A stretch of DNA of 58,703 nucleotides, taken from NCBI RefSeq assembly GCF_021531375.1, contig NZ_JADYTU010000012.1:1-58703 (forward strand). The letters run 5' to 3'. A program made the translations under genes and the position numbers. Below are positions 14,753 through 29,853 of the stretch, one piece after another (positions within the stretch are counted from its first letter, which is position 1; each line of letters begins with the position of its first letter). The notes beneath the pieces are model-generated. The model did not search any database. It saw only the letters and a list, made by a program, of their open reading frames with translations, and was not told the DNA's origin. The DNA is from Pseudoflavonifractor phocaeensis (GTDB lineage Bacteria > Bacillota > Clostridia > Oscillospirales > Oscillospiraceae).

Positions 14753-17191
14753 ATGCCCAAGATCTCCGATCCCGCCCCCAAGGCCGCGGCCAAGGCCCCG
14801 GCGCGCATGTCGAAAAAGGACCCTCTCACCAAGGAACAGCTCCACGCCGTCGACGCCTGGTGGCGTGCCGCCAACTACCTGTCCGCCTGCCAGCTCTATC
14901 TGCTGGACAACCCCCTGCTTCGGGAGCCTCTTCAGCTCTCCCACATCAAGCAGAACATCGTGGGCCACTGGGGCACCTGTCCGGGACAGAACTTTATCTA
15001 CACCCACCTGAACCGGGCCATCGTCAAATATGATCTGGATATGATCTACATCTGCGGCCCCGGCCACGGCGGCAACGCCATCGTTGCCCAAGACTATCTG
15101 GACGGCTCTTACAGCGAGGTGTACCCCAACATCAGCCAGGACACCTCCGGCATGAAGCGGCTGTTCCGCCAGTTCTCCTTCCCCGGCGGCATCCCCTGCC
15201 ACACCGGTCCGGAGACCCCCGGCTCCATCAATGAGGGTGGGGAACTGGGCTACTCCCTGGCCCACGCCTTCGGCGCCGTCATGGACAACCCCAGCCTCAT
15301 CGCCGCCTGCGTGGTGGGCGACGGCGAGGCGGAGACCGCGCCCCTGGCCGCCGCCTGGCACTCCAACAAATTCCTCAATCCCATCACCGACGGAGCTGTG
15401 CTGCCCATCCTCAATCTGAACGGCTTCAAGGTGTCCAACCCCACTGTTTTTTCCCGCATCTCCCATGAGGAGCTAGAGATGTTCTTCAAGGGCTGTGGCT
15501 GGGAGCCCCGTTTCGTGGAAGGCAGCGAGCCCAAGATCATGCACCAGAAAATGGCCGCCGCCCTGGACTGGGCGGTCCGGGAGATCCAGCGCATCCAGGA
15601 GTACGCCCGCACCTCCGGCGACGCTGCCCGGCCCCGCTGGCCCATGATCGTGCTTCGCTCCCCCAAGGGCTGGACCGGTCCCAAAGAGGTGGACGGCAAC
15701 CAGGTGGAGGGCAGCTGGCGCTCCCACACCGCCCCCATCCCCGTCCGGGACGGCAAGCCCGGCCGGGTCCAGGAGCTGGAGCGCTGGCTTCGCAGCTATC
15801 GGCCCGAGGAGCTTTTCGACGAGCACGGCGCGCCGGTCCCCCTGCTCCAGGAGATAGCCCCCAAGGGCGTTCAGCGCATGGGCGCCAATCCCCACGCCAA
15901 CGGCGGTCAGCTCCTCCGGGACCTGCGCACCCCCGACTTTCAGGAATACGCTCTGGCCGTCCCCCAGCCCGGCGCTGTGGAGGCCGAGGACATGGCCGCT
16001 CTGGGCGGCTATGTCCGTGATCTGATGGAGCAGAATCTGAAGGCCCGGAACTTCCGCATTTTCTCCCCCGACGAGGCGGCCTCCAACCGCCTGTCCCAGG
16101 TCTTTGAGGTCACGGGCCGCCGCTGGTCCGATGACATCGACCAGCGCGCCGACTCCTGCCTCTCCCATGACGGCCGGGTCATGGACGCCGCTTTGTCCGA
16201 GCACCTGTGCCAGGGCTGGCTGGAGGGCTACCTCCTTACCGGCCGGCACGGCTTCTTCAACAGCTATGAGGCCTTCATCCGCACCGTGGACTCCATGGTG
16301 TCCCAGCACGCCAAATGGCTGAAGGTGTGCAGCCAGCTCCCCTGGCGGCCCTCCATCGCCTCGCTGAACTATGTACTGGCCTCCAACGTGTGGCAGCAGG
16401 ACCACAACGGCTTTACCCACCAGGACCCGGGCTTCCTGGACCATGTGGCCAACAAGAAGGCCGATGTGGTCCGCCTCTACCTGCCCCCCGACGCCAACTG
16501 TCTGCTCAGCTGCTTCGACCACTGCATCAAGAGCCGCAACTACATCAACGTCATCATCGCCTCCAAGCTGCCCCGGCCCCAGTGGCTCAGCATGGACCAG
16601 GCCATCAAGCACTGCACCCACGGCATCGGCATCTGGCAGTGGGCCTCCAACGACCAGGGCCACGAGCCCGACGCGGTGCTGGCCTGCTGCGGCGACACCC
16701 CCACCCTGGAGACTCTGGCCGCCGTCACGATCCTGCGCCACTACCTGCCCGATCTGAAGATCCGGGTCATCAACGTGGTGGACCTGATGAAGCTCCAGCC
16801 CCACACCGAGCACCCCCACGGCCTCACCGACGAGGACTATGACGCCCTGTTCACCACCGGCGCCCCCATCATCTTCGCCTTCCACGGCTACCCCACCCTG
16901 GTCCACGAGCTGACCTACCGCCGGCACAACAAGAAGCTCCACGTCCGGGGCTACAAGGAGGAGGGTACCATCACCACCCCCTTCGACATGCGGGTACGCA
17001 ATGACATTGACCGCTTCCACCTGGTCATGGACACGGTGAAGCGGCTGCCCCAGCTGGGCAACAGCGCCTCCTACCTCATCCAGGAAATGAAGGACAAGCT
17101 GGTGGAGCACCGGCAGTACATCACCACCCACGGCCAGGACCTGCCCGAGGTCCGGGAGTGGAAATGGAATGACGGCAAAGGGATCTACTGA
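14753..17191 (+). CDS. xfp: Phosphoketolase (xylulose-5-phosphate / fructose-6-phosphate), 812 aa
   Basis: This thiamine-diphosphate enzyme cleaves xylulose-5-P or fructose-6-P with phosphate to acetyl phosphate and a smaller sugar phosphate, giving ATP through acetate kinase. The sequence shows the family landmarks [41 protein letters not shown] and the diphosphate-binding [14 protein letters not shown] in the N-terminal half; the C-terminal domain has [13 protein letters not shown]. The ATG at 14753 follows AAGGAGG; the longer upstream frame includes promoter DNA. An N-terminal Ala/Lys-rich extension of about 25 residues precedes the conserved domain. It is monocistronic. Confidence 0.95.
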
Positions 17192-17265: not shown

Positions 17266-17981
17266 TAAATTTTAGTCTATAGTCTTTCTTATACGATAGC
17301 TTGGTGCAAGGCGATGGCTTGTCAAGCCTGCGGCGCGGTACTTTCCAGAGAAGGAAAGTACCCAAAGTTCTCCGGGGCTTCGGCCCCGGACCCCGTGGGG
17401 ATCCATCAAAGAATATGCAAAATACTGTTCGGCGCGGGCAAAAGACAGGATACTTTTCTGAACTCCGCCCGCTGCCGCTCCAATCTATGAAATTGGTCCC
17501 CGCATCCTTTGATTTGATCGCGCCTCTGAGTTAACAATCGCGGGGTGCCCCTGCAAGGATTGCGAGCCTGCCGTTCTGCACCAAGCCTCTGCTGATCCGA
17601 GGTACCATCGGGCGGCCCCAGCGGGCTAGGTGGGTAAGAAGCAACTGCTGGCAGTCTTTGCCGCCACCGTGGCGGGCTATATCGCTTATCCCCCGTAAAA
17701 TCTTCTCCATTTTGCGAAGCAAATGGCGGTGTGAGCGCTCTCATATTTTGCTGGCTGCGATCAGCGCAAGGCCGCCTGCTCTCCCAATGGGGGTCCGGGG
17801 GCGGCGCGGATAGCGCAATAAAATTGCGCGTGGCCGCCCCCGGCGATTCTCAAGGTGAATTGCCCCGCAGGGGCAAGAGAAGGCGGCCTGGGCCGTTGGT
17901 TTCTTTCTGATCGTTCAGAAAGAAACCCGCTCCGCAGAGCGGAATCCTTTTCAAAACACTCCAACGATAAACTAAAATTTA
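17266..17981. repeat. Long dispersed repeat, copy A (716 bp) with terminal inverted repeats
   Basis: The ends are TAAATTTTAGTCTAT (17266-17280) and ATAAACTAAAATTTA (17967-17981), inverted copies of each other. The interior is near-identical over most of its length to 27314-27996, in the same orientation. It contains several stable hairpins: 17337-17362 (10-bp stem), a GC hairpin around CCGGGG-CTTCGG-CCCCGG, an AGCGCAAT / ATTGCGCG stem and a GGTTTCTTTCTGA / TCAGAAAGAAACC stem near the right end. Frames inside it are not conserved between the two copies. It fills most of the 994-base gap between xfp and the ECF gene. It looks like a non-autonomous, non-coding mobile repeat. Confidence 0.85.
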
Positions 17982-18010
17982 GCCTGCTGGCTGAGGCGAT
18001 CAAAAAGCCA

Positions 18011-18039
18011 TTGACCGCCCCTGCCGTCCATGTTATAAT
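18011..18039 (+). promoter_or_regulatory. Promoter of the ECF leader transcript
   Basis: TTGACC (18011-18016), 17 bases, TATAAT (18034-18039). Confidence 0.8.
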
Positions 18040-18045
18040 GTATTT

Positions 18046-18160
18046 AACCGCTGGAATGAATCCGGCACCAGGTTTCCAGGCACCCATACGATCGAAGTAC
18101 AATACCGCGAAGGTATATTCCGTCCAGAAGGACGGAGTCTGCCCTTGCGGTATTTTTTCG
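18046..18160 (+). ncRNA. Structured leader with intrinsic terminator upstream of ECF S component
   Basis: The untranslated leader is about 140 bases. It ends in AATACCGC (18101-18108) pairing with GCGGTATT (18147-18154), followed by TTTTTT; inside it AAGG / CCTT and TCCGTCC / GGACGGA (18119-18136, AGAA loop) continue the stem. An upstream TGGAA ... TTCCA pairing (about 18052-18078) could compete. This is the layout of a transcription-terminating riboswitch or attenuator, but I cannot match it to a named class. Confidence 0.6.
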
Positions 18161-18185
18161 AACACATTTACAAGGAGAGGATTCC

Positions 18186-18725
18186 ATGTCAAAACAGAAT
18201 GATACCACCAAAAACATGGTGCTGGCCGCCCTGATGCTGGCCCTGGCCTACATCCTGCCCAACTTTACCGGCAACATCCCCCAATTCGGCTCCATGCTGC
18301 TGCCCATGCACCTGCCGGTCCTTCTGTGCGGCTTCCTGTGCGGCGGGCCCTGGGGCGCCGCCGTGGGCTTCATCGCCCCGCTGATGCGCTCCGCTATTCT
18401 GGGAATGCCCCCGCCCTTCCCCACCGCTGTCTCCATGGCCTTTGAACTGGCCGCCTACGGCTTTATGTCCGGCTTCCTGTACCGCCGCTTGCCCAAAACT
18501 CTGGGCGGCATCTACGCCTCTCTTATCGGCGCCATGCTCTGCGGCCGGGTAGTCTGGGGCGCGGTCATGTCCGTCCTCCTGCTGAAGGGCCAGGGCTTTA
18601 CCTTCGCCGCCTTTGTAGCCGGTGCCTTCACCAACGCCATCCCCGGCATTATCCTCCAGCTGGTGGCCATCCCCGTCATCGTCCTGGCCCTCCAGAAGGC
18701 CAAGCTGGTCTCTCAGGCGGCGTAA
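18186..18725 (+). CDS. ECF transporter S component (substrate-binding membrane subunit), 179 aa
   Basis: The six-helix S component captures a vitamin or precursor and works with a shared EcfA/A'/T module encoded elsewhere. The segment around LPMHLPVLLCGFLCGGPWGA and PLMRSAILGMPPPFPTAVSM is characteristic of S components; the pattern resembles PanT-like (pantothenate-type) members, but the substrate is not certain. Length is typical (170-190 aa). The ATG at 18186 follows AAGGAGAGG. The gene follows the terminator-containing leader and precedes the kinase-like gene by three bases, so the ligand may be phosphorylated by that protein. Confidence 0.85.
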   Translation: MSKQNDTTKNMVLAALMLALAYILPNFTGNIPQFGSMLLPMHLPVLLCGFLCGGPWGAAVGFIAPLMRSAILGMPPPFPTAVSMAFELAAYGFMSGFLYRRLPKTLGGIYASLIGAMLCGRVVWGAVMSVLLLKGQGFTFAAFVAGAFTNAIPGIILQLVAIPVIVLALQKAKLVSQAA

Positions 18726-18728
18726 GTT

Positions 18729-19769
18729 ATGGGAACTCTGGCGGAGCTCCTGAAGGAGCATTATGACAACCATCCGGGCATGGAGGTCCGGGACGCCGTG
18801 AAATTTCTCTACCAGAGCCACATGGGGCCGGGCCATCTGGTCGATGACGAGGGGGCGGCTCTGGCCCGTCTGAAGGCGGAGTGGGACCAGGTGGAGGCGG
18901 ATCCCGCCCTCCCCTTGGCCGAGCCTCTGGGGAACGGCCTGTTTCGGTTGAATCTCGTGGCTTGTAAAGCAAAAAGCCTATCCCCCAACACCCTCAACCG
19001 TCTCTTTGTGCTGACCGCCCGGGAGACGTTCCCCGACCGATCCGGTCTGGAAAGCGGCCTTGATTTGGTGTACACACTTCCCTTTCCCCGGGACGCGGCG
19101 GACGCCTTTCTGGCCCAATACCGGTCCCAGGGCTGCCCGGCAGTGAGCCACAGCGAGGCCTACCGGCGGGCCTTCCGCCCCGCCTACCGGGTGGTGTCAG
19201 AATCTTATGTCAATCTGATTCCCATTCTGTCCGCCATTGACCGTGGGATGGCAGAGCAGCCCCGGCTCCGGGTAGCCATCGACGGCCCCTGTGCCTCGGG
19301 AAAGTCCACTCTGGGGGCGGCTCTGGCAAAGATCTACCGCTGTCCCCTGGTCCACATGGACGACTTCTTCCTCCGTCCTGAACAGCGGACGGCAGAGCGG
19401 CTGGCTCAGCCCGGCGGAAATGTGGACTATGAGCGCTTTGATTGTGAGGTCCTCTCCCCTCTGTGCCGGGGAGAGACGGCCCGCTACCGGCCCTGGCAGT
19501 GCCACACCGGAAACTTCGGCCCGGAGATTCGCCTGGGGCCAGCGCCCCTGACGGTGGTAGAGGGCAGTTACGCCCTGCGCTCCGATCTGCGGGACCGCTA
19601 TCATCTCCGGATCTGGGTGGAGGCCCCCTGGGAGGTTCGGCTTCAGCGGCTGGCCCAGCGGGGCGGCCCCGGGTGCCTGGCCCGCTTTGAGCAGCAGTGG
19701 ATCCCCATGGAGGACCGCTACTTCCGGGCCTGCCGGGTGAAGGAGTGCTGTCAGTTGATTTATCCGTAA
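18729..19769 (+). CDS. Two-domain protein with C-terminal uridine-kinase-like P-loop domain (346 aa)
   Basis: The C-terminal half (from about residue 178) is a P-loop kinase of the uridine kinase / phosphoribulokinase type: Walker A in AIDGPCASGKSTLG, the VHMDDFF motif and a later EGSYAL. The N-terminal 170 residues form a separate helical domain (LLKEHYDNHPGMEVRDAVKF, then HMGPGHLV) that I know only as an unnamed clostridial domain. Translational coupling to the ECF S component suggests that the imported compound is its substrate, so nucleoside or vitamin salvage is plausible. The terminator at 19773-19799 ends the unit. Confidence 0.8.
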   Translation: MGTLAELLKEHYDNHPGMEVRDAVKFLYQSHMGPGHLVDDEGAALARLKAEWDQVEADPALPLAEPLGNGLFRLNLVACKAKSLSPNTLNRLFVLTARETFPDRSGLESGLDLVYTLPFPRDAADAFLAQYRSQGCPAVSHSEAYRRAFRPAYRVVSESYVNLIPILSAIDRGMAEQPRLRVAIDGPCASGKSTLGAALAKIYRCPLVHMDDFFLRPEQRTAERLAQPGGNVDYERFDCEVLSPLCRGETARYRPWQCHTGNFGPEIRLGPAPLTVVEGSYALRSDLRDRYHLRIWVEAPWEVRLQRLAQRGGPGCLARFEQQWIPMEDRYFRACRVKECCQLIYP

Positions 19770-19772
19770 AAC

Positions 19773-19799
19773 AAGGCCCCCGGCTGTGCCGGGGGCCTT
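19773..19799. terminator. Bidirectional terminator
   Basis: AAGGCCCCCGGC / GCCGGGGGCCTT with a 3-base loop between convergent genes. Confidence 0.8.
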
Positions 19800-19845
19800 G
19801 CTTATTCGCATTTACATTGGAATCGTCCGACGGACGGCAATAGGT

Positions 19846-21165
19846 TCACCAGGGAAGCCAGCTGCCCGCCTCCCGGGCGGCCATCACATCCAGGGCTCCG
19901 TCCAGCAGTTCCGCCGCTTCGCCCCGGGTCAGAGAGTCGGACAGCGCCGCGGAGCTGACGCCGCCCGACGGGAGGATACCGGAGGCCGTCAGATTGGCGG
20001 CGGCCTGGGCGGCCCAATGGGACTCGCCGCCGGAGAAGAATACCTCAGCGGGCACGTCGGCGATGTTCAGCAGCCGGTCCAGCATCACCGTGGCCTCGCC
20101 GCAGGTGACGGGCTGGTCCGCGCCAAAGACGGGCGCGCCGCTGTCATCCCGGGAGCCTTGGATGGTCCCCGCCTTCAGCGCGGCGGAGACGGAGCCCTTG
20201 GCCCAGGTGGGGATGGCGCTGTCGTCGGCGAAGCCGGTGAGGGTGACCCCCTCCATGGGCTCCAGTCCGGACACCGCCATGGCCATGGTCAGGAACTGGG
20301 CCCGGCTCACCGGCTCGTCCGGTTCAAAGAAGTAGCGGCCGTCCATATACTGGCCCACATAGATCCCCTCTTCCGCCAGGCGGATGGCGGCCTTATGGGC
20401 GCTGTGACCCTCCAGATCGGCGTAGGTCACCTTGGTATCCGGCTTTTCGATCCGGACGGTGACCTTGGCCTCGGAGGAGATGTTGCCGGCAGGGTCCACC
20501 GCCACATAGGTGAAGGAGTCGCTGCCCGTCTTGTTCTCGTAGGGGGTGTAAACAAACTGGCTGGAGCCGTCCTCGGCCACGGTGACGGCGCCCCGGGCGG
20601 GATTGGAGGTCAGCTCGAAGGTGAGGAGATCGCCTTCCCCGTCTACGGCGTCAAAATAGCCGGTGATGGCAATATTCTTGTAGGTGGACAGGTCCATGTT
20701 CCGGGCGATGGGGGCCTGATTCTCCTCGGTGAGCAGGTACAGGGTGACGGTGGTGGTCTTACTGTCCTGGCCGGAGGAGAAGGAGGGTGTGAAGGTAAAG
20801 GTGGTGGTGGTGACGGTGGGCTTCTGGGACGACTGGAACCGGAGCCCGCCCAGTGCGGTGCTGTCCACCACCGAGCCCACCTCCAGGGGCTGGCCGCCGA
20901 TGACCAGCGTACCGGCCCCGGGATCGGGCAGCGTGTTGATGGTGATACTGTTCAGGGTGGCCTTGTTGTCGGTGTTGACCACAAAATCTTCCGCCTCAAA
21001 GGGGATGATGGCGCCCACCAGTCCGTTTTTGGAGAAGTCGCTCACATAGGGGACGTCCGGATTCCTGTTCCAGAAAAAGGCGGAGGCGGGGGAGATCAGG
21101 GTGCAGGCCAAAGCCAGGACCAGCAACGGAGCCAGCCCCCGGCGTAAGGAGAGAGAACGTTTCAT
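19846..21165 (-). CDS. Secreted SLH-domain protein with cadherin-like domain (439 aa)
   Basis: A signal peptide (MKRSLSLRRGLAPLLVLALA, cleavage near residue 29 after ASA) is followed by a region of unknown fold (30-150), a cadherin/Ig-like beta domain (about 150-245, with VDGEGDLLTFEL and SDSFTYVAVDPAGN) and three S-layer homology modules (about 250-430; the first contains YFFEPDEPVSRAQF). SLH modules anchor proteins to pyruvylated wall polymers, so this is a cell-surface protein. The beta domain resembles adhesion modules, so it may bind a surface or sugar. It is transcribed alone. Confidence 0.9.
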   Translation of the reverse strand: MKRSLSLRRGLAPLLVLALACTLISPASAFFWNRNPDVPYVSDFSKNGLVGAIIPFEAEDFVVNTDNKATLNSITINTLPDPGAGTLVIGGQPLEVGSVVDSTALGGLRFQSSQKPTVTTTTFTFTPSFSSGQDSKTTTVTLYLLTEENQAPIARNMDLSTYKNIAITGYFDAVDGEGDLLTFELTSNPARGAVTVAEDGSSQFVYTPYENKTGSDSFTYVAVDPAGNISSEAKVTVRIEKPDTKVTYADLEGHSAHKAAIRLAEEGIYVGQYMDGRYFFEPDEPVSRAQFLTMAMAVSGLEPMEGVTLTGFADDSAIPTWAKGSVSAALKAGTIQGSRDDSGAPVFGADQPVTCGEATVMLDRLLNIADVPAEVFFSGGESHWAAQAAANLTASGILPSGGVSSAALSDSLTRGEAAELLDGALDVMAAREAGSWLPW

Positions 21166-21242
21166 GGGATACCTCCATTCATTGAGTAATGTACCCCTAG
21201 TGTTCTTTCTTTCCCCCTAAATTATGCGGCGCCCGGTCCGGT

Positions 21243-21725
21243 TCAGAAGCGCAGCCGCATCTGGTACCAGACAGCCCCGCCGTGGACGGAACGGGAGACC
21301 CCCTCGCTGACAAAGCCCAGTCTGGCGTAGTAATCCAGCAGAGCCGCCTTACAGGTCAGCACCAGTCCTTCCCTGCCCTGAGCCCTGGCGTCATGGACGA
21401 CCCGGCGGAGCAGCTCCATGGCATAGCCCTGACGGCGTGCCTCCGGGATGGTGTTGACCCCGAAGATCATCTGCCAGGCCCCGTCCTCCCGGTGGAGGGA
21501 TGCGTCCTGATACATCTCGTCCCGCAGGTCCGCCTCGTCGGTGACCATACCGTTGACAAAGCTGACCAGCCGCCCCCGGTCATAGAGGAGCCAGAAGTGG
21601 TCCGGATAGACGGCCAGACGTGCCCGGAATTCCTCCCGGGTGGCCGCTTCGGCGGGCGGGAAACAGGCCGCCTCCACCTGGGTCAGTGCTTCCAGATCGG
21701 CGGTGGTAGCGGTACGGATCATCAC
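21243..21725 (-). CDS. GNAT family N-acetyltransferase (160 aa)
   Basis: A single GNAT fold: the acetyl-CoA binding loop reads EARRQGYAMELLRR (motif R-x-x-G-x-A) and a later YARLGFVSEGVSR is the usual final strand/helix. It lies 12 bases after cysK in the same direction and is probably co-transcribed. The substrate cannot be predicted; association with cysteine synthesis may be incidental. Confidence 0.85.
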   Translation of the reverse strand: MMIRTATTADLEALTQVEAACFPPAEAATREEFRARLAVYPDHFWLLYDRGRLVSFVNGMVTDEADLRDEMYQDASLHREDGAWQMIFGVNTIPEARRQGYAMELLRRVVHDARAQGREGLVLTCKAALLDYYARLGFVSEGVSRSVHGGAVWYQMRLRF

Positions 21726-21737
21726 GGCTGCCCCTCC

Positions 21738-22679
21738 TTACCGCTGGAACATGGGCGAGGACAAGTACCGGTCCCCGGAATCGGGGAGAAGGACCACGAT
21801 GGTCTTGCCCCGGTTCTCCGGCTCACGGGCCAGCTGCTCCGCCGCCCACAGGGCGGCTCCCGAGGACACGCCGGCCAGGACGCCCTCCGTCAGGACCAGC
21901 TGGCGGCCGGCCTCAAAGGCGTTCTCGTCCTTGACCCGGATCACCTGGTCATAGATGGAGCGGTCCAGGGTCTGGGGAATGAAGTTGGCTCCTATGCCCT
22001 GAATCTGGTGGGGGCCCGCCTGGCCTCCAGAGAGGAGGGGCGAGGCGTCGGGCTCCACCGCCACCACCCGGACCTTGGGATTTTGCTCCTTGAGGTAGCG
22101 GCCGGTGCCTGACAGGGTGCCGCCGGTGCCCACGGTGGCCACAAAGATGTCCACAGCCCCGTCGGTGTCCCGCCAGATTTCAGGTCCGGTGGTGCGGTAG
22201 TGGGCCTCCGGGTTGGCGGGGTTGTCAAACTGGCCGGGGATAAAGCTGTCGGGGATGGAGGCGGCCAGTTCCCGAGCCTTGTCCACCGCCCCCTGCATCC
22301 CCTGGGCGCCGGGGGTCAGCACCAGCTGGGCCCCGTAGGCCGCCAGCATGGCGCGGCGTTCGGCGCTCATGGTGTCGGGCATGGTGAGGATGACCTTGTA
22401 GCCCCGGGCGGCGGCCACACAGGCCAAGCCGATGCCGGTGTTGCCCGAGGTGGGCTCGATGATGGTGGCGCCGGGCTTCAGCAGTCCCCTGGCCTCCGCG
22501 TCGGCGATCAGAGACAGGCCCACCCGGTCCTTTGCCGAGCCGGCGGGATTTAGGTACTCCAGCTTAGCCAGCACAGTCGCTGTAAAGTTATGCGCCTTCC
22601 CATATCGGTCCAGCCGGAGCAAGGGGGTATTTCCGATCAGTTCTTCTATACTGGTGCAAAAACAGGCCATACGATCCAT
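21738..22679 (-). CDS. cysK: Cysteine synthase A (O-acetylserine sulfhydrylase), 313 aa
   Basis: This PLP enzyme makes cysteine from O-acetylserine and sulfide. The internal-lysine motif is PAGSAKDR, and the substrate loop EPTSGNTGIGLA and the PLP phosphate-binding GTGGTLSGTGRYLKEQ are all present. Length is typical for the CysK/CysM group. The ATG at 22679 follows AAAGGACG; an alternative ATG lies three codons in. No serine acetyltransferase gene is adjacent. Confidence 0.95.
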   Translation of the reverse strand: MDRMACFCTSIEELIGNTPLLRLDRYGKAHNFTATVLAKLEYLNPAGSAKDRVGLSLIADAEARGLLKPGATIIEPTSGNTGIGLACVAAARGYKVILTMPDTMSAERRAMLAAYGAQLVLTPGAQGMQGAVDKARELAASIPDSFIPGQFDNPANPEAHYRTTGPEIWRDTDGAVDIFVATVGTGGTLSGTGRYLKEQNPKVRVVAVEPDASPLLSGGQAGPHQIQGIGANFIPQTLDRSIYDQVIRVKDENAFEAGRQLVLTEGVLAGVSSGAALWAAEQLAREPENRGKTIVVLLPDSGDRYLSSPMFQR

Positions 22680-22752
22680 CGTCCTTTCGAAAAATTCTTT
22701 TCGGGAATCAATGGACCTATCATATCCCCCAGGGACCCTTCTGTCAATCCGA

Positions 22753-22781
22753 TTGCAAAAAGGGCAGGAACGGGGTATAAT
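22753..22781 (+). promoter_or_regulatory. Promoter of the patatin-like gene
   Basis: TTGCAA (22753-22758), 17 bases, TATAAT (22776-22781). Confidence 0.65.
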
Positions 22782-22820
22782 ATAAAAATCTCAAAATCTT
22801 GAGTCAATGAGGGCGAATCT

Positions 22821-23672
22821 ATGAAAACAGGAATTGTTCTGGAGGGCGGGGCCCTCCGCGCGATCTTTTCCAGCGGCGTGTGCGACGGCCTGCTGGAGGG
22901 TAACATCATGCCCGACTACCTGATCGGCGTCTCGGCGGGCATTGCCTACGGGGTGAGTTATCTCTCCCGCCAGCCCAGGCGAAATCTGGAGGTGGTCACC
23001 ACCTACGCCTCTGACCACCGCTACATGGGGATGAACAATCTGGCGGACAAGAGCAACCGCAGCTATTTTGGACTGAAGTTTGCCTATGATACCATTCCCA
23101 ATGAGCTGATCCCCTTTGATTACGACGCCTTCGCCGCCTACCCCGGCCAGGTGGAGGCGGTGGTCACCAACCTGAACACCGGGAAGGCGGACTATATGGA
23201 AGTGCCCCGGCTGGACCGGAATTCCCAGCTCCTCCAGGCCACCTGCGCCATGCCCCTGATGTTCCCCATCTACCACCTGAACGGTCAGCCCTATCTGGAC
23301 GGGGGCATCGCCGACTCCATTCCCTGGCGGCGGGCCATGGACCAAGGCTGTGACCGGGTGATGGTGGTCATGACCCACCCCAGGGATTATGTGCGGAAGC
23401 AGGAGAGGCTGATGCCCCTGATCCGCAAGACCTACCGGGAGTACCCCAACTTTGTGGCCGCCATGGAGGACCGGGCCCAGCGCTATAACGAGGACCGGGA
23501 GCAGATCTTTGATCTGGAGCGCCAGGGCAAGCTGCTTGTCATCGCTCCGGATTCCACCATGGGGGTGTCCCGCACCGAGCGGAACCCGGAGAAACTGCGC
23601 CTGCTGTGGGCCAAGGGCTATCAGGCTGCCATGGACCGGATGGAGGAGATCCGGGCCTTTTTCAGCCGCTGA
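22821..23672 (+). CDS. Patatin-like phospholipase family protein (283 aa)
   Basis: The patatin hydrolase fold is shown by the oxyanion segment LEGGALRAIFSSGV near residue 8, the nucleophile elbow GVSAG (Ser39 region) and the catalytic Asp in DGGIADSIP (about residue 157). These catalyse lipid acyl-ester hydrolysis with a Ser-Asp dyad. No signal peptide, so cytoplasmic or membrane-peripheral. The ATG at 22821 follows GGGCGAATCT, a weak ribosome binding site. Confidence 0.9.
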   Translation: MKTGIVLEGGALRAIFSSGVCDGLLEGNIMPDYLIGVSAGIAYGVSYLSRQPRRNLEVVTTYASDHRYMGMNNLADKSNRSYFGLKFAYDTIPNELIPFDYDAFAAYPGQVEAVVTNLNTGKADYMEVPRLDRNSQLLQATCAMPLMFPIYHLNGQPYLDGGIADSIPWRRAMDQGCDRVMVVMTHPRDYVRKQERLMPLIRKTYREYPNFVAAMEDRAQRYNEDREQIFDLERQGKLLVIAPDSTMGVSRTERNPEKLRLLWAKGYQAAMDRMEEIRAFFSR

Positions 23673-23916
23673 CCGTCTCTTCCTTTTCCTCCTCGTCTGT
23701 CTGCCGGGACTCCGGGAGACACAGGGACCGGCAGTCCCGGAACAAATTGGGCTGGAGGACGAAGAGGGCCAGTGTGTCCCCCACAATGGTAAAAAAGGCG
23801 GCCATCTTCCCGATGGCGGCCTCGTCCTGGTCCTGGGCCAGCAGCACGGACAGGGCCACCGCCAGCACCAACAGCTCCCGGCTGTCACGGTCAAATAAGG
23901 AACACAAGAATACCAC
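23662..23916 (-). CDS. Small hypothetical membrane protein (84 aa)
   Basis: One or two hydrophobic segments (ELLVLAVALSVLLAQ and FFTIVGDTLALFVL) flanked by charged residues, with an acidic tail (QTDEEEKEET). The frame overlaps the 3' end of the patatin-like gene by 11 bases, and the GTG start has only a GGGGG stretch upstream. A shadow frame cannot be excluded. Confidence 0.4.
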   Translation of the reverse strand: MVFLCSLFDRDSRELLVLAVALSVLLAQDQDEAAIGKMAAFFTIVGDTLALFVLQPNLFRDCRSLCLPESRQTDEEEKEETVSG

Positions 23917-24033
23917 CCCCGGGTCATCTTATGCGGAGATCCGGCGGGTGGTTTTTCCGCGCCTCCTTTGCCCTTTTCAAACGAAGCCCTGTGTGGTAGG
24001 ATAAAAGCATCCGGATCAAAGTGAGGAATTTTT

Positions 24034-24447
24034 ATGAAAATCGTTGTTGTGGACGGCCAGGGTGGCCGTCTGGGAAAGCTGCTGGTGGAGGGCATCAAGA
24101 CCCGTCTGCCCCAGGCCCAGGTCTATGCGCTTGGGACCAACAGCATCGCCACCGCCACCATGCTCAAGGCGGGTGCTGATTTCGGCGCCACGGGAGAAAA
24201 CCCGGTGATCCGGGGCGTGATGGACGCCGACGCGGTGCTGGGCCCGGTAGGCATCGTGGTTGCCCACGCCATTCTGGGCGAGGTGACCCCCGCCATGGCC
24301 GAGGCGGTGGGCGGCTGCCGGGCCAGGAAATTCCTGGTGCCCATGAACAGCTGCGGGGTGGTAGTAGCTGGTGTAAAGGATCAGCCCCTGCCGGTCTATG
24401 TGTCCCAGGCTGTGGAGCAGATGGCGGAAGCCTTGGAGAAGGAGTGA
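24034..24447 (+). CDS. DUF3842 family protein (137 aa)
   Basis: This conserved Clostridia protein has a Rossmann-like N-terminus (MKIVVVDGQGGRLGK) and a glycine-rich core (NSIATATMLKAGADFGATGE). The family function is unknown; a nucleotide- or metal-related role is suggested by the GxGGxxG motif. The ATG at 24034 follows AGTGAGGAA. It precedes the aldo/keto reductase by 3 bases and is co-transcribed with it. Confidence 0.85.
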   Translation: MKIVVVDGQGGRLGKLLVEGIKTRLPQAQVYALGTNSIATATMLKAGADFGATGENPVIRGVMDADAVLGPVGIVVAHAILGEVTPAMAEAVGGCRARKFLVPMNSCGVVVAGVKDQPLPVYVSQAVEQMAEALEKE

Positions 24448-24450
24448 GCC

Positions 24451-25584
24451 ATGGAATATCGCAGTATAGAACGGACAGGGGCCCGGCCCTCCCTGCTGGG
24501 CTACGGATGTATGCGCTTCCCGTTGGACCGGGAGACCGGGAGCATTGACCAGGCGCGGGCGGAGGCCCTGATCCGCCGGGCCATGGAGGCGGGGATCACC
24601 TACTATGACACCGCCTGGCCTTACCACAACGGGGAGAGCGAGCCCTTCTTGGGCCGGGTCCTGTCCCAGTATCCCCGGGACCGCTATTATCTGGCCACCA
24701 AGCTGCCCTGCTGGGAGATCACCAGCCGGGAGCAGGCGGCGGAGCTGTTCGAACGGCAGTTGGAGCGGCTGCAGACGGACCATGTGGACTTCTATCTCCT
24801 TCACAGTCTGAGCCGCAGGACCTGGAAGCGGATGCTGGAGCTGGACATTCTCTCCCTTCTGGAGGAGTATCAGCGCCAGGGTAGGCTGCGCCGGCTGGGC
24901 TTCTCCTTTCATGACGAATATGAAGCCTTTGCGAAGATTCTGAACCACCGGGACTGGGATTTCTGCCAGATCCAGCTGAACTACATGGACACCCACCACC
25001 AGGCGGGACTTCAGGGGCTGGAGTTGGCCCGGAGCAAAGGCGTGCCGGTGGTCGTGATGGAACCGGTGAAGGGCGGTTCTCTGGCCCAGCTACCGGAGGA
25101 AGTCACGGCGTCCCTGCGGGCCCTGGACCCGGAGGCTTCCGCCGCCTCCTGGGCCATGCGCTGGGTGGCCAGCCAGCCGGGCGTGGCGGTGGTCCTCAGC
25201 GGCATGTCCACCCCGGAGCAGTTGGAGGACAACCTGAGTACCTTTTCCCATTTCCGCCCCCTGGATGTGGAAGAAAACCAGGCGGTGGAAGAGACCGCCC
25301 GGCTGCTCCGCAGCCGCCTGAGAAACGGCTGCACTGGCTGCCGGTATTGCCTCCCCTGCCCTAAGGGCGTGGATATTCCTAAAAACTTTCAAATTTGGAA
25401 CAACATGGCCATGTACGGCAACCTCCGTCTGACCAAGCGGGCTTGGCGGGAGCTGGAGCCCGGGGCCAGAGGGGACCAGTGCGTCTCCTGCGGCCGCTGC
25501 GAAGAACTGTGCCCCCAGCACATTCCCATCCGGGAGCACCTGGCCCGCCTTACCGGAGAGGTGGAGGGATTTTTGACCCCATAG
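24451..25584 (+). CDS. Aldo/keto reductase with C-terminal ferredoxin-type cluster domain (377 aa)
   Basis: The N-terminal 300 residues are an aldo/keto reductase barrel (catalytic Tyr in the DTAWPYHNG segment; KLPCWEI and DFYLLHSL). The C-terminal 60 residues carry two four-cysteine motifs, CTGCRYCLPCP and CVSCGRCEELCP, as in ferredoxin domains holding [4Fe-4S] clusters. Such fusions are common in anaerobes, where the clusters link a carbonyl reduction to ferredoxin; the substrate is unknown. It is translationally close to the DUF3842 gene. Confidence 0.9.
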   Translation: MEYRSIERTGARPSLLGYGCMRFPLDRETGSIDQARAEALIRRAMEAGITYYDTAWPYHNGESEPFLGRVLSQYPRDRYYLATKLPCWEITSREQAAELFERQLERLQTDHVDFYLLHSLSRRTWKRMLELDILSLLEEYQRQGRLRRLGFSFHDEYEAFAKILNHRDWDFCQIQLNYMDTHHQAGLQGLELARSKGVPVVVMEPVKGGSLAQLPEEVTASLRALDPEASAASWAMRWVASQPGVAVVLSGMSTPEQLEDNLSTFSHFRPLDVEENQAVEETARLLRSRLRNGCTGCRYCLPCPKGVDIPKNFQIWNNMAMYGNLRLTKRAWRELEPGARGDQCVSCGRCEELCPQHIPIREHLARLTGEVEGFLTP

Positions 25585-25633
25585 CCTGCTGTCCAGGCGC
25601 TTCGGAGCCCGGCCGCCGCCATTGCATAAAAAA

Positions 25634-25664
25634 CAGCGCCCCTGAACGATGTTCAGGGGCGCTG
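25634..25664 (-). terminator. Terminator of the rsmD-coaD-coiled-coil operon
   Basis: Perfect 14-bp stem CAGCGCCCCTGAAC / GTTCAGGGGCGCTG with a 3-base loop, followed on the minus strand by TTTTTT. Confidence 0.85.
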
Positions 25665-25688
25665 CCGTATCTCATACCTTACTGCCGT

Positions 25689-26216
25689 TTAGTCCTCGTC
25701 GGCGGCCGCGTCATAGATGGGACGGGAGCCGGTGGTCCCGGCGGCGGGGGCGGAGGCCACCCCGGCGGCGGCACGGAACCGGGCCCGGGACTGCTTGATC
25801 TCGTCATAGGCCTCGGCCACAGCCTCCTCGGTGCGGCGCAGGGCGTCCTCGCAGTACTCGTTGGCGGAACGCTTCAGCTCCCGGCTGCGCTCCTCCGCCT
25901 GCTGCATCATCTCGTTGGCCCGCTGCTTGGCCTGGAGGGTGATGGTGTCCTCCGCCAGCAGCTGCCGGGCCTTATCCTCCGCGGCCTTGCGGATCGACTC
26001 GGCCTCCCGCTTGGCGGAGGCCACCAGTTCGGCCCGGTTGGCCATCATCTTTCTCGCCTCGCTCAGCTCCATGGGGAACTGGCTGCGTATATCGTCGATC
26101 AGATCCAGCGCGCGGTCCCGCTCAATGATGCACTTATCATTGGAGAAGGGGGCGTTCTTCGCCTCGTCGATCATTTCAAAGAGCATGTCCAGCAGCTCTT
26201 CCACACCGCTTGCCAT
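25689..26216 (-). CDS. Coiled-coil protein (175 aa), DivIVA/ATP-synthase-b-like helix
   Basis: An almost continuous coiled coil from about residue 40 to 140 with heptad-like Ala/Glu/Lys repeats (AKREAESIRKAAEDKARQLL and ELKRSANEYCEDALRR). A short Ala/Gly/Pro tail follows. The N-terminal 35 residues (EELLDMLFEMIDEAKNAPFS) are a conserved helix. Such proteins accompany coaD in Clostridia; they look like DivIVA-type polar scaffold or stator-like proteins, but no function is shown. It starts 3 bases after coaD stops. Confidence 0.75.
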   Translation of the reverse strand: MASGVEELLDMLFEMIDEAKNAPFSNDKCIIERDRALDLIDDIRSQFPMELSEARKMMANRAELVASAKREAESIRKAAEDKARQLLAEDTITLQAKQRANEMMQQAEERSRELKRSANEYCEDALRRTEEAVAEAYDEIKQSRARFRAAAGVASAPAAGTTGSRPIYDAAADED

Positions 26217-26219
26217 TGA

Positions 26220-26717
26220 TTACCCTTCCTTTCCCTGCAGTTCTCCCATGCGGCGATTGACGTCGTCTACGATCTCCCGGGGCACAAAGTCCGCCAGGTC
26301 AGCCCCGTAGCGCGCCATCTCCTTGACGATGGTGGAACTGAGATATGTATATTTTTCGCTGGAGGCCAGGAACATGGTCTCCAACCGGGGGTTCAGCTTG
26401 CGGTTGATGACCGCCATCTGGACCTCCTGCTCGAAATCGGACACCGCCCGCAGTCCCTTGACCACCACATGGGCCCGGCGCCGCTTGGCATAGGCCGCCA
26501 GCAGCTCGTCGGAGAAGTCCACTTCCACATTATGGAACCGCTCGGTGGAGCGGCGCAGCAGCTCCACCCGCTCCTCCGGGGTAAACATCCCCTGCTTTTT
26601 GGAGTTGACCATCACACAGACGATCAGCTTGTCAAAGCAGGCGGCGGCCCGCTTGATGATGTTCAAATGGCCCAGGGTCACCGGGTCAAAGCTGCCGGGA
26701 TAGATGGCAATGCTCAT
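26220..26717 (-). CDS. coaD: Phosphopantetheine adenylyltransferase (165 aa)
   Basis: This catalyses the penultimate step of coenzyme A synthesis. The nucleotidylyltransferase signature YPGSFDPVTLGHLNII (T/HxGH-type) is at the N-terminus and the second motif (YTYLSSTIVKEMAR) near residue 125. Length matches the family. It overlaps rsmD by 4 bases (ATGA), so the genes are coupled. Confidence 0.97.
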   Translation of the reverse strand: MSIAIYPGSFDPVTLGHLNIIKRAAACFDKLIVCVMVNSKKQGMFTPEERVELLRRSTERFHNVEVDFSDELLAAYAKRRRAHVVVKGLRAVSDFEQEVQMAVINRKLNPRLETMFLASSEKYTYLSSTIVKEMARYGADLADFVPREIVDDVNRRMGELQGKEG

Positions 26718-27271
26718 GTTCTCTCACTCCCAGCCCGGCGGCAGATCGTCAGCTTGATCTTTCCGTACCGGTACTCTCTCCCCTGTTCATAGGGGAGGGC
26801 CAGCGGGGGAAGTTCCCGGTCCGCGGCACTTTCGCAAACCATTATACCATGTTCCCCAAGAATGTCAAACCTTGTGATGGCTTCGATGCTCTTCTCCAGC
26901 AGATCCGAATGGTAGGGAGGGTCCAGGAAGATCACGTCAAATTTCTCATGGCAGGAGGCCAGAAAGGACAGCGCATCCCCCTGGACCACGCGGGCGTGCT
27001 CGGAAAAACCGCAGGCCTTCACGTTGTCCCGGATCAGGGCCACAGCCTCCCGGCGCTGGTCCACAAAGGTACAGCGCTCTGCCCCCCGGGACAGAGCCTC
27101 AATGCCCAGCTGGCCGGTACCGCCGAACAGGTCCAGCACCCGCCGTCCCTCGATCTCAAATTGGATGATATTAAAGATGGACTCCTTCACCTTGTCGGTG
27201 GTAGGGCGGGTATCCATCCCCTGGAGTTCCTTTAACCGACGGCCCCGAGCCGTTCCGGAAATCACGCGCAT
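26714..27271 (-). CDS. rsmD: 16S rRNA (guanine966-N2)-methyltransferase RsmD (185 aa)
   Basis: This methylates G966 of 16S rRNA during small-subunit assembly. It has the S-adenosylmethionine motif (VLDLFGGTGQLGIEALSRGA) and the N-methyltransferase catalytic motif FLDPPYH. The conserved N-terminus MRVISGTARGRRLKE is intact. The rsmD-coaD pair is a usual gene neighbourhood in Firmicutes. The long repeat copy B begins 43 bases upstream. Confidence 0.95.
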   Translation of the reverse strand: MRVISGTARGRRLKELQGMDTRPTTDKVKESIFNIIQFEIEGRRVLDLFGGTGQLGIEALSRGAERCTFVDQRREAVALIRDNVKACGFSEHARVVQGDALSFLASCHEKFDVIFLDPPYHSDLLEKSIEAITRFDILGEHGIMVCESAADRELPPLALPYEQGREYRYGKIKLTICRRAGSERT

Positions 27272-27313
27272 GGTCCTTGATCCTCTCTTTTCATAAGTTT
27301 TAAAAGTTGATGG

Positions 27314-27996
27314 TAAATTTTAGTTTATCTGAGGATTTCGCCAGCGGGCGGACGGGAGTTAGGACGAAGGAGTATTTCGCCCCCGGGCGAGGTACTTTTG
27401 TAGAGATACAAAAGTACCCAAAAAATCTCCGGGGCTTCGGCCCCGGTCCCCATGGGGAGCCATCAAAGAATATGCAGAATACTGTTCGGCGCGGGCAAAA
27501 GCCAGGATACCTCTCACACCCCCGCCCGCTGCCGCTCTGCAACAGTGAAATTGGTGCCTGCTTCTCCCGACTAAAAGCGCGCCTCTGGGTTAACAATCTC
27601 GGGGCGCTTCGCCCATACCTGCCAGCCTTCTCGTTTATGCCAGACTATTTCAAGAACGGGGCACACTCGGGCGGCCCCGGCAGGCCAGGTGGGTAAGAAG
27701 CAACTGTTGACAGTCTTTGCCGCCATCGAGGCGGGCTGTATTGCTTATCCCCCCGTAAAATCTTCTCCATTTTGCGAAGCAAAAGGCGGTGTGAGCGCTC
27801 TCATATTTTGCTGGCTGCGATCAGCGAAAGGCCGCAGAACTCTTATAATGGGGGTCCGGGGGCGGCGCGGATAGCGCAATGAAATTGCGCGTGGCCGCCC
27901 CCGGCGATTCTTTGGTTTCTTTCTGATCGTTCAGAAAGAAACTCGCTCCGCAGAGCGGAATCCTTTCAAAACACTCCAACGGTAAACTAAAATTTA
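27314..27996. repeat. Long dispersed repeat, copy B (683 bp) with terminal inverted repeats
   Basis: This second copy of the repeat at 17266-17981 lies in the same orientation between rsmD and uvrC. The ends are TAAATTTTAGTTTATC and GGTAAACTAAAATTTA, so the terminal inverted repeat is again present. Large blocks are near-identical to copy A (for example around CAAAGAATATGCA and CCGTAAAATCTTCTCC). The first hairpin (27391-27418) differs from that of copy A by compensatory changes. The final TTTA supplies the TAA stop codon of uvrC. No conserved reading frame. Confidence 0.85.
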
Positions 27997-29814
27997 CGGT
28001 TCTGAATGAAAATACTGATACACCGCCTGGGCTGTATTTTGGGGCACGACCTCCCGAAGCTGCTCCAGAGAGGCGGCCCGGATGGCCTTGACGCTTTTGA
28101 AATGCTTCAGCAGCTGTGTGCGGCGGACCTCCCCCACTCCAGGTATTTGGTCCAGAACAGAGGTTTTTACATGTCCCGCCTGGAGCTGGCGGTGGTACTC
28201 GATGGCAAAGCGGTGCGTCTCCTCCTGGATCTGGCCAATGAGGGCAAAGACCGCCGGGATGGCCTGGATGCCAATCTCCCGGCCGTCGGGATGGACCAGC
28301 GCCCTGGTCCGGTGCCGGTCGTCCTTCACCATGCCGTAGGCCGGGATACTCAGATTCATGGATTCCAGCACCCGGGCGGCCACCTTCACATGCTCATGGC
28401 CGCCGTCGATCAGGAGCAGATCGGGTTTGTCGGAAAATTTCTCGTCTCCGTCCAGATACCGGCGGAACCGGCGGGTCAGGACCTGCTCCATGGAAGCGTA
28501 GTCGTCTGGGCCCGTCATGTCCTTCAGCTTGAACCGGCGGTAGTCCCGCTTCAGCGGTTTTCCGTCCACATAGACCACCATGGAGGCCACGATGTCGCTG
28601 GCCCCCTGGTTGGAGATATCGTAGGATTCCATGCGGCGGGGCGGCTGCTCCAGCCCCAGCATCCGGCCCAGAGCCTCCAGCAGCTTATTCTGCCGCTCCT
28701 CCCGGGTGGTGGCCCGCTCCACCTCCTCCCGGGCATTCTGGTTGGCCAGCTTGATCAGGTCCATCTTGGCCCCCCGCTGGGGCGTGACCAGCTCCACCCG
28801 GCTCCCCACCTGCTCAGACAGCATCCGGGTCAGGGGCACCTGGTCAGGCAGCTCGCAGGGCAGCAGGATCTGCTTGGGCAGCCGGGTCCGGCCCACATAG
28901 TATTCCCGCATCAGGAAGGACAACACCGCTTCCTCGTCCTCCTCCACCGGGGACTCAAAGAGGTCAAAGTCCTTGGCGGCCAGTTCCCCCTCCATATAGT
29001 GGAGGACCACAAAGCAGCTCTTGGCCGTCCCCCGGAAAAACCCGGTCACGTCGGTGTCGGCCAGGGACCCGGCGATGACTTTCTGCCGCTTGCCCAGCAG
29101 CTCGATAGCCCGCAAGCGGTCCCGAAGCTCCGCGGCTCGCTCGAAGCGCAGCTCCTCCGCTGCCTGCTCCATCTCGGCGGTCAGGTCGGACTGGACCTCC
29201 TTGAAGCGGCCTTCCAGCAGAGAGACTGCCTGGAGCATGGCCTGGTCGTGCTGCTCCTTCATCTCGTCGCTGCGGCAGTAGCCGTCGCACTTGCCCATGT
29301 GGAAGTTGAGGCAGGGCCGCTCCTTGCCGATGTCCCGGGGGAACTTCTTGTTGCAGGAGGGCAGCCGCAGTGCGGTCCGAAGGGCGTCGATGATGGCCTG
29401 GGTGTTGTGGCGGCTGGCGTAGGGGCCGAAGTACCGTGCCCCGTCCTCCGCGGCCTTGCTGGCCAGAGAGAATTTAGGGTATGGCTCGTTGGACAGGCGG
29501 ATATAGGGGTAACCCTTTCCGTCCTTCAGCAGGATATTATACCGGGGCTGGTGGCGCTTGATGAGAGAACACTCCAGCACCAGCGCCTCAAACTCGCTGT
29601 CGGCGATGATGACGTCGAAATGGTCGATCTGGGACACCATGGCCCGCGTCTTCTCCGTGTGGCTGGCCGAGTCCTGGAAGTACTGGGACACCCGGTTTTT
29701 CAGCGCCTTGGCCTTGCCCACGTAGATCACCGTATTTTTGGCGTCCTGCATGATATAGACCCCCGGCTTCAGGGGCAGGCTGTGTGCCTTTTCCTTCAGT
29801 TCGTCAAAGGTCAC
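27994..29814 (-). CDS. uvrC: Excinuclease ABC subunit C (606 aa)
   Basis: This makes the dual incision of nucleotide-excision repair with UvrAB. The N-terminal GIY-YIG nuclease domain (PGVYIMQDAKNTVIYVGKAK), a UVR motif (about 205-235), the RNase-H-like endonuclease domain and the C-terminal HhH domain (QIPGVGEVRRTQLLKHF) are present. The GTG at 29814 is preferred, being preceded by AAGGAGAGG, over a TTG further upstream. Its stop codon TAA (27996-27994) coincides with the end of repeat copy B, so the last residues may have been changed by that insertion. Confidence 0.95.
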   Translation of the reverse strand: MTFDELKEKAHSLPLKPGVYIMQDAKNTVIYVGKAKALKNRVSQYFQDSASHTEKTRAMVSQIDHFDVIIADSEFEALVLECSLIKRHQPRYNILLKDGKGYPYIRLSNEPYPKFSLASKAAEDGARYFGPYASRHNTQAIIDALRTALRLPSCNKKFPRDIGKERPCLNFHMGKCDGYCRSDEMKEQHDQAMLQAVSLLEGRFKEVQSDLTAEMEQAAEELRFERAAELRDRLRAIELLGKRQKVIAGSLADTDVTGFFRGTAKSCFVVLHYMEGELAAKDFDLFESPVEEDEEAVLSFLMREYYVGRTRLPKQILLPCELPDQVPLTRMLSEQVGSRVELVTPQRGAKMDLIKLANQNAREEVERATTREERQNKLLEALGRMLGLEQPPRRMESYDISNQGASDIVASMVVYVDGKPLKRDYRRFKLKDMTGPDDYASMEQVLTRRFRRYLDGDEKFSDKPDLLLIDGGHEHVKVAARVLESMNLSIPAYGMVKDDRHRTRALVHPDGREIGIQAIPAVFALIGQIQEETHRFAIEYHRQLQAGHVKTSVLDQIPGVGEVRRTQLLKHFKSVKAIRAASLEQLREVVPQNTAQAVYQYFHSEP

Positions 29815-29853
29815 GGGACCTCTCCTTCCTCCCGGTTCCGGGGGTAACGTCAA

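Follow-up and report, generated by a model that had tools for sequence, protein, structure and literature searches.

The question raised by the window analyzed here, a 58,703-nt stretch of Pseudoflavonifractor phocaeensis DNA (NCBI RefSeq assembly GCF_021531375.1, contig NZ_JADYTU010000012.1, positions 1 to 58,703) that constitutes contig 3 of a 66-contig, 2.28-Mb assembly (genome G000 in what follows), is what kind of element its two long repeats represent, and how they came to lie at the ends of genes. Copy 1 (716 bp, 17266..17981) and copy 2 (683 bp, 27314..27996) share their orientation and are bounded by inverted ends, and a first-pass annotation of the locus took them for either a structured, non-autonomous mobile repeat or an RNA family. 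What emerges is a dispersed, structured, non-coding repeat, probably once mobile, with no enzyme of its own in the copies seen. In the reading that we favor, with some reserve, the two repeats are long members of an old, modular family resembling miniature inverted-repeat transposable elements (MITEs) and bacterial interspersed mosaic elements (BIMEs), palindrome-rich and non-autonomous, with ends at gene stops and interiors that turn over.

A single local duplication can be ruled out as the origin of the pair. Searching the 2.28-Mb assembly with the 14-base end TAAATTTTAGTYTA at up to one mismatch yields 50 forward and 58 reverse matches, against one forward and one reverse match for a reversed control pattern, and the resulting table holds at least 40 complete and at least 26 partial elements. 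Ends were picked for this table by their match to TAAATTTTAGTTTA with up to two mismatches; its counts are lower bounds among the matches listed, from which a few copies may be missing, and its partial elements are those cut by contig ends, two of which could sometimes be halves of one element. The two window copies align at 79% identity over 650 bases (E 1.4e-158), a more modest likeness than the near-identity over long blocks first ascribed to them. Copy 2 is nearer to copies on other contigs (90% for C24 and C28, 89% for C25) than to copy 1, and therefore did not arise with it by local duplication. The coordinates, shared orientation, and terminal inverted repeats (TIRs) of the annotation all hold; the common end, put at 15–16 bases, comes to 14, the right end of copy 2 reading inward as TAAATTTTAGTTTACCG.

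Complete elements fall, among the matches listed, into 31 short (145–307 bp) and nine long (675–854 bp) ones, with several interior types that by alignment have little in common beyond the ends; six mixed elements (L083, L084, L089, L090, L108, and L134) appear by eye to be joined modules. The 17 short elements of 240–270 bp have a median identity of 95.3% over 136 pairs, and the long elements are 82.9% identical over 36 pairs. No reading frame is conserved, as had been claimed: the longest open frames in the nine complete and one partial long copies of G000 span 93–196 codons on either strand. In keeping with MITEs, the family is non-coding, has terminal inverted repeats, and comprises at least 40 complete copies of 145–854 bp, all under about 1 kb. 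It is bounded by a near-invariant inverted end of 13–15 bp, (T)AAATTTTAGTTTA(T), the AT-rich end being TAAATTTTAGTTTAT. Across 106 ends (both ends of complete elements and one end of each partial), positions 2–11 are each conserved in at least 104, 105 of them having A at position 2; T occupies position 1 in 96, and a purine stands just outside in 102; conservation within the end is partly by construction, the ends having been matched to the consensus with up to two mismatches, and the outside base is free of that bias. Given this pattern and its symmetry, each element is set within a purine-TA-pyrimidine site, and the flanks of the tabulated elements carry no repeat beyond TA.

At least 23 genes with Pfam support, uvrC among them, use the terminal TAA of an element as their stop codon. 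Seventy-six open frames, each 240 nt or longer, cross from flanking sequence into an element, and 37 of them stop at offset 0, on the first TAA of the element. A known domain is recognized by Pfam in 23 of 29 stop-fused frames (the remaining eight, which are short, were left out of the set) and in none of the 39 frames that stop elsewhere, and it is from this disparity that the assignment of the stop codon follows; under random phase, 23 of 23 genes in one phase would be very unlikely. The domains concerned include UvrC, AsnA, MurB_C, Glyco_tran_28_C, GIDA, MMR_HSR1 with KH_2, and ACP_syn_III_C, with alanine racemase, SpoU methylase, and CRS1_YhbY as further stop-fused genes. Beyond the domain names, we take Glyco_tran_28_C to denote MurG, GIDA MnmG, MMR_HSR1 with KH_2 Era, and ACP_syn_III_C FabH, and presumably ispG also belongs here. 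Short elements face these 23 genes in one orientation nine times and in the other eight times, the other six elements being of other types. In the window, the outermost three bases of copy 2 (27994–27996) are the stop codon TAA of uvrC (27994..29853, minus strand); with the exception of these bases, the annotation of both copies as intergenic stands.

Gene ends seem to stand where they stood before, with the element having taken over the stop codon, as suggested by their conservation in MurB and at the site of element L098. The MurB protein, element-fused in G000, has its last residue at the same position in 26 of 29 relatives, with three extending further, and is therefore not truncated in G000; in the sister species (G020, read in part) its stop is a TGA without an element. 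The gene at the L098 site ends in DVL in G000, in G020, and in G041, the next relative beyond G020. There, G041 reads TTA TAA without an element, the TAA of G020 belongs to the element, and that of G000 falls in a fragment of an end, the full element starting 23 bp farther on. UvrC tails differ in length among the 30 loci read. To judge from these sequences, conserved protein C-termini argue for a stop codon at such sites before insertion.

Many of the sites are shared between species. In a flank-by-flank comparison of 20 G020 elements with 66 G000 records, 11 of the 20 proved to lie at the same site in G000 on one or both sides (L164, L167, L168, two in L169, L171, L172, L173, L174, L177, and L178, the edge of the L172 site having been settled by a further comparison), among them the uvrC site of window copy 2. 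Of the other nine, two lie in a common region at distances that do not agree, one marks a G000 site that is empty in G020, and six lack a counterpart. Flanks at shared sites are 71–92% identical, and at the L115/L177 site the alignment of both flanks comes within 5 bp of the element edge in either species. The G020 element at position 6802 of L169 joins two G000 loci, which implies rearrangement. For the L102 site, a second strain represented in the viral_contigs collection has the same short element type, next to a flank 98.9% identical. That record (L349:7134-8386, IMGVR_UViG_3300010270_000219), listed as viral, has its element beside sequence matching G000 contig 26 at this identity, and is probably host DNA of another strain.

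Interiors differ at most of the shared sites compared. Both elements are complete at seven of the 11 shared sites, and BLAST comparison finds at five of the seven only matches of 30 bp or less between the species' elements, ends included; the corresponding five G000 elements each match another G000 element at 94.7–99.5%, over the full length except in L098 (103 of 145 bp). Old sites combined with homogeneous interiors suggest that interiors were recombined or exchanged in each lineage separately. L097, L098, and L099 lie in one 20-kb stretch of G000, and G020 is occupied at L098; G041 has no such end at the L097, L098, or L099 sites, and neither do G050 and G076 at the L098 site. Across this stretch (L267 6713-17231 against G020:C11), G000 and G020 differ by an inversion that breaks where L097 and L099 lie, the outcome to be expected if two oppositely oriented copies recombined, and in G020 an element is present where the left flanks of the two meet.

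Candidate enzymes were sought among transposase domains. Y1_Tnp matches occur in five of seven genomes, four of them over the cut-off and that of G008 below it, G000 having a single match at C66:13300 with 28.7 bits (cut-off 23). Below the curated cut-off of 80 bits, the proteins of G000 (4e-18, 65.7 bits) and of G020 resemble NCBIfam REP_Tyr_transpos, that is, the transposases associated with repetitive extragenic palindromes (REPs), known as RAYTs. The GTAGGG motif of such palindromes is present in all 31 short G000 elements and in two of the nine long ones. Furthermore, the RAYT-like reading frames L341:1285-1788 (G000), L342:1291-1776 (G020), and L343 on the minus strand (G008) contain a pair of inverted GTAG palindromes: GTAGGGCGGGGGCTTGCCCCCGCC with an inverted near-copy in G000, an inverted pair of GTAGGGCAAGGGCTCTGCCCTTGCC, one with a mismatch, in G020, and an inverted pair of GTAGGGGCGGATATCATCCGCCC in G008. 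These in-frame palindromes differ among the three genomes and occupy similar protein positions; that of G000 has five exact copies among the 40 tabulated elements, and that of G020 is present in G020 elements. The AT-rich sequence TAAATTTTAG is absent from the 831 bases read around the G000 RAYT-like gene, and no end pair enclosing a transposase was found among the copies read in G000 and in part of G020, 26 copies being cut by contig ends.

In the favored reading, the family would have spread when copies transposed, in an ancestor common to G000 and G020, into stop codons or immediate 3′ ends of genes, an insertion rendered harmless because the element restores TAA, and the elements would mostly have stayed in place thereafter. 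Their interiors would turn over in each lineage, through recombination or gene conversion between copies or through exchange of the whole interior between fixed ends. The short interiors hold REP/BIME-like palindromes, on which the one RAYT-like Y1 transposase in the genome would probably act, at present or in the past, and the AT-rich ends may have been placed either by a TIR-recognizing transposase or by a TIR-flanked type of tyrosine transposase. For the cell, the consequence is most likely near neutral, that of selfish DNA tolerated at gene 3′ ends. The family itself, the placement of its TAA, the shared sites, the differing contents at most of those compared, and the pairing of the hairpins are observed; the spread, the turnover of interiors, and any enzyme for the ends belong to the proposed history.

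Several points weigh against it. Seven of the nine complete long copies, among them the two in the window, are devoid of GTAGGG and so of any link to the RAYT-like gene, and no enzyme is tied to the AT-rich ends. Had a plain TA insertion given rise to the purine-TA-pyrimidine flank, the old site would have been a tyrosine codon, which clashes with a prior stop. Two of the seven compared sites (copy 2/L173 and L115/L177) retain internal stretches of about 111 and about 76 bases at 83–86%, so not every interior was replaced; gene conversion would be deduced from its outcome, and the junction joining the right flanks of L097 and L099 in G020 has no element. Pfam, moreover, sees known genes only, leaving six of 29 stop-fused frames without support and eight of 37 outside the test, and the frames that stop elsewhere are shorter (mean 606 vs. 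753 nt, with 16 of 39 reaching at least 636 nt vs. 25 of 37 stop-fused frames), which lowers their chance of a Pfam match. This gap in length can hardly account for the drop from 23 of 29 to 0.

A more elaborate scheme, which we regard as conceivable and no better than doubtful, would have the AT-rich ends serve as fixed sockets at stop codons, preserved while the species diverged, with hairpin cassettes swapped in and out between them in an integrase-free process run by a single-strand (Y1/RAYT) transposase or by recombination, the TAA of the socket preserving the host gene at each swap.

Unlikely, too, is a MITE of the IS630/Tc1-mariner type, the ends of which would be bound by a DDE transposase encoded elsewhere, with insertion at TA and duplication of the TA, as the first-pass annotation had proposed. 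The DDE_3 domain, which we take to be the mark of IS630, was found in none of five genomes, with control matches in three of 14. TA at almost every terminus and the palindromic purine-TA-pyrimidine flank agree with it, but no G000 element seen is big enough for a transposase gene, pieces at contig ends resemble known interiors, and deviation from the outermost T in 10 of 106 ends against deviation from the next A in one of 106 is odd for a duplicated TA. The conserved C-termini, by implying a prior stop codon, count against it as well, and no TA duplication can be demonstrated at 17266 or at other sites. At site 17266, G020 has a palindrome piece matching six G020 elements over 24–35 bp at 83–92%, a kind of match also given by three of 50 shuffled gaps, and, by eye, an end-like AATTTTCGTTT; it thus probably retains a decayed element. 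G041 has no recognizable element there, at a divergence too great to place the junction. MITEs of the TA type are nevertheless known, such as Correia/NEMIS and RUP, which are described as non-coding, dispersed, and provided with short inverted ends with terminal TA (PMC2229807). The present family is like them in all these respects, and differs in the absence of an IS630-type domain from the five genomes and in the differing interiors at most of the shared sites compared.

Independent targeting, with separate insertions at the same sites in both species by an element that recognizes the sequence of stop codons or of gene 3′ ends, is improbable. It would account for the 23 Pfam-supported genes that end exactly at an element, all in one of three phases, for the differing contents at most shared sites compared, and for the empty MurB stop of G020, which makes some sites lineage-specific. 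Sharing 11 of 20 sites among some two thousand genes (an estimate from genome size) would, however, demand extreme specificity from a short flank consensus; the flanks of L115/L177, aligned to within 5 bp of the element, also count against it, and the probable decayed G020 copy at 17266 fits old insertion.

The structure of the copies bears on the remaining alternative. Copy 1 begins with the left TIR TAAATTTTAGTCTA (17266..17279, plus strand) and ends with TAAATTTTAGTTTA (17968..17981, minus strand); copy 2 has this latter sequence at both ends, at 27314..27327 on the plus strand and at 27983..27996 on the minus strand. Long copies hold one hairpin near each end: GGTACTTT..AAAGTACC on the left (17337..17362) and GTTTCTTTC..GAAAGAAAC on the right (17899..17926) in copy 1, and GGTACTTTTGTAGAGATACAAAAGTACC (27391..27418) and GTTTCTTTCTGATCGTTCAGAAAGAAAC (27915..27942) in copy 2, which also has a core block (27730..27799) similar in the long copies of G000 and of G020. 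Over all fetched sequence, the wider pattern of the copy 1 left hairpin keeps both variable stem pairs in 42 of 43 strand-collapsed distinct hairpins, against 8.0 on average and at most 16 in 2000 shufflings of the arms, a pattern that fixes the other stem bases and draws on related sequences that are not independent. The least likely alternative, that the family is a dispersed functional RNA or 3′-untranslated structure, with the long core as an RNA gene or the elements stabilizing or terminating transcripts, could appeal to this pairing, to gene-end location, to the strong folding of copy 2 (z −5.7 on the plus and −4.6 on the minus strand, 20 shuffles each), and to 19 terminator-like sites in the region vs. 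a shuffle mean of 9.4, several of them within the two copies, but folding of both strands is inherent to palindromes, gene-facing orientation is balanced, most of the shared sites compared have different interiors in the two species, and Rfam gives nothing over threshold inside any element tested, its sole match being a T-box outside the element.

Beyond the two species, parts of the element are found more widely. A search with copy 2 gave matches in 23 of 64 genomes of the genus, its own included, with at most eight candidates scored per genome; outside G000 and G020, most matches listed fall on the right-hand hairpin module, the one surrounding the right hairpin of copy 1. In G012, this module forms inverted pairs in four of eight stretches fetched, without the AT-rich end. 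In this one-contig genome (G012:C1), 10 of 11 hairpin-module rows listed, one pair of which represents the two strands of one place, fall near 0 or near 2.9 Mb, no more than 80 kb from a contig end; with eight of 28 candidates scored, this clustering may be a sampling effect. The exact 15-mer end occurs in six of 400 genomes of the family, including G000 and G020, four being outside the genus. In one of these (G449:C118, L261:4855-4993), a 139-bp element, its AT-rich end intact on one side and diverged on the other, encloses two inverted GTAG palindromes between purine/pyrimidine flanks. In another genus (L268, G279:C149, 1-7233), 7.2 kb are 93.9% identical to G000 contig 22, and 99% over 2.3 kb, with the same element included, which reflects either bin contamination or recent transfer. 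G258 and G084 have no partner end within three mismatches in element layout in the stretch fetched, and the search for an autonomous copy in other genera found none in the stretches of G449, G279, G258, and G084 that bear the exact 15-mer end. Phages and plasmids have no match to copy 2. The genome_contigs collection, from which records near the window's genome are perhaps excluded, has no match to the short-element end by exact patterns; the hairpin module, searched likewise, occurs in 29 stretches from six metagenome-assembled genome records titled uncultured bacterium, Clostridium (chicken), or Oscillospiraceae. In viral_contigs, the hairpin module has no match and the short-element end has one.

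As for the neighbors of the repeats, copy 1 lies between a phosphoketolase gene with XFP domains, ending at 17191, and a gene for the S component of an energy-coupling factor (ECF) transporter (18186-18725), and copy 2 between uvrC and a Cons_hypoth95 methyltransferase gene (26714-27271, minus strand). The ECF-transporter gene is preceded by a leader at 18101-18158, AATACCGCGAAGGTAT...CCAGAAGG.CGG...GCGGTATTTTTT, conserved in G000, G020, and G041; it has no Rfam match at E 1 or better, and may possibly represent an unlisted riboswitch.

Several known systems resemble the family in part. BOX elements are modular and structured. In Streptococcus pneumoniae, the stop codons of 36 genes are encoded by such repeats, with no strong evidence of truncation (PMC3049150). 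By description, then, BOX elements are alike in being dispersed repeats that supply stop codons and in their modular structure, and differ from the present family, which has near-perfect AT-rich inverted ends, two size classes, and GTAG-type palindromes in the short class. REPs are likewise known to supply stop codons, as TAG (PMC3733652). The GTAG palindromes, universal GTAGGG in the short elements, and single RAYT-like gene of G000 recall the REP/BIME/REPIN systems with their RAYTs; the family departs from them in its outer 14-bp inverted ends, in the lack of GTAGGG in most long copies, and in having palindromes within the transposase reading frame, whereas RAYT genes are described as flanked by GTAG palindromes or REPs (PMC2817692). 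Lastly, PMC3733652 describes TIRtrons/TIRYT, tyrosine transposase genes flanked by long TIRs, with TIR repeat families unrelated to GTAG repeats; the likeness here is a TIR repeat family in a genome with a tyrosine transposase, and the difference is that no transposase gene was seen flanked by the ends of the family. A literature search covering few subscription papers, directed at the family, at REPs and MITEs of these bacteria, and at stop codons, found nothing on the family.

If the favored reading is true, dozens of repeats would have become gene punctuation in one bacterial lineage, the end of the repeat being the stop codon of the gene. The same site with the same ends and a different interior in two species would preserve a natural history of the persistence and changing content of small bacterial repeats, and the RAYT-like genes, with their matching in-frame palindromes, would offer a direct test of which enzyme recognizes which hairpin.

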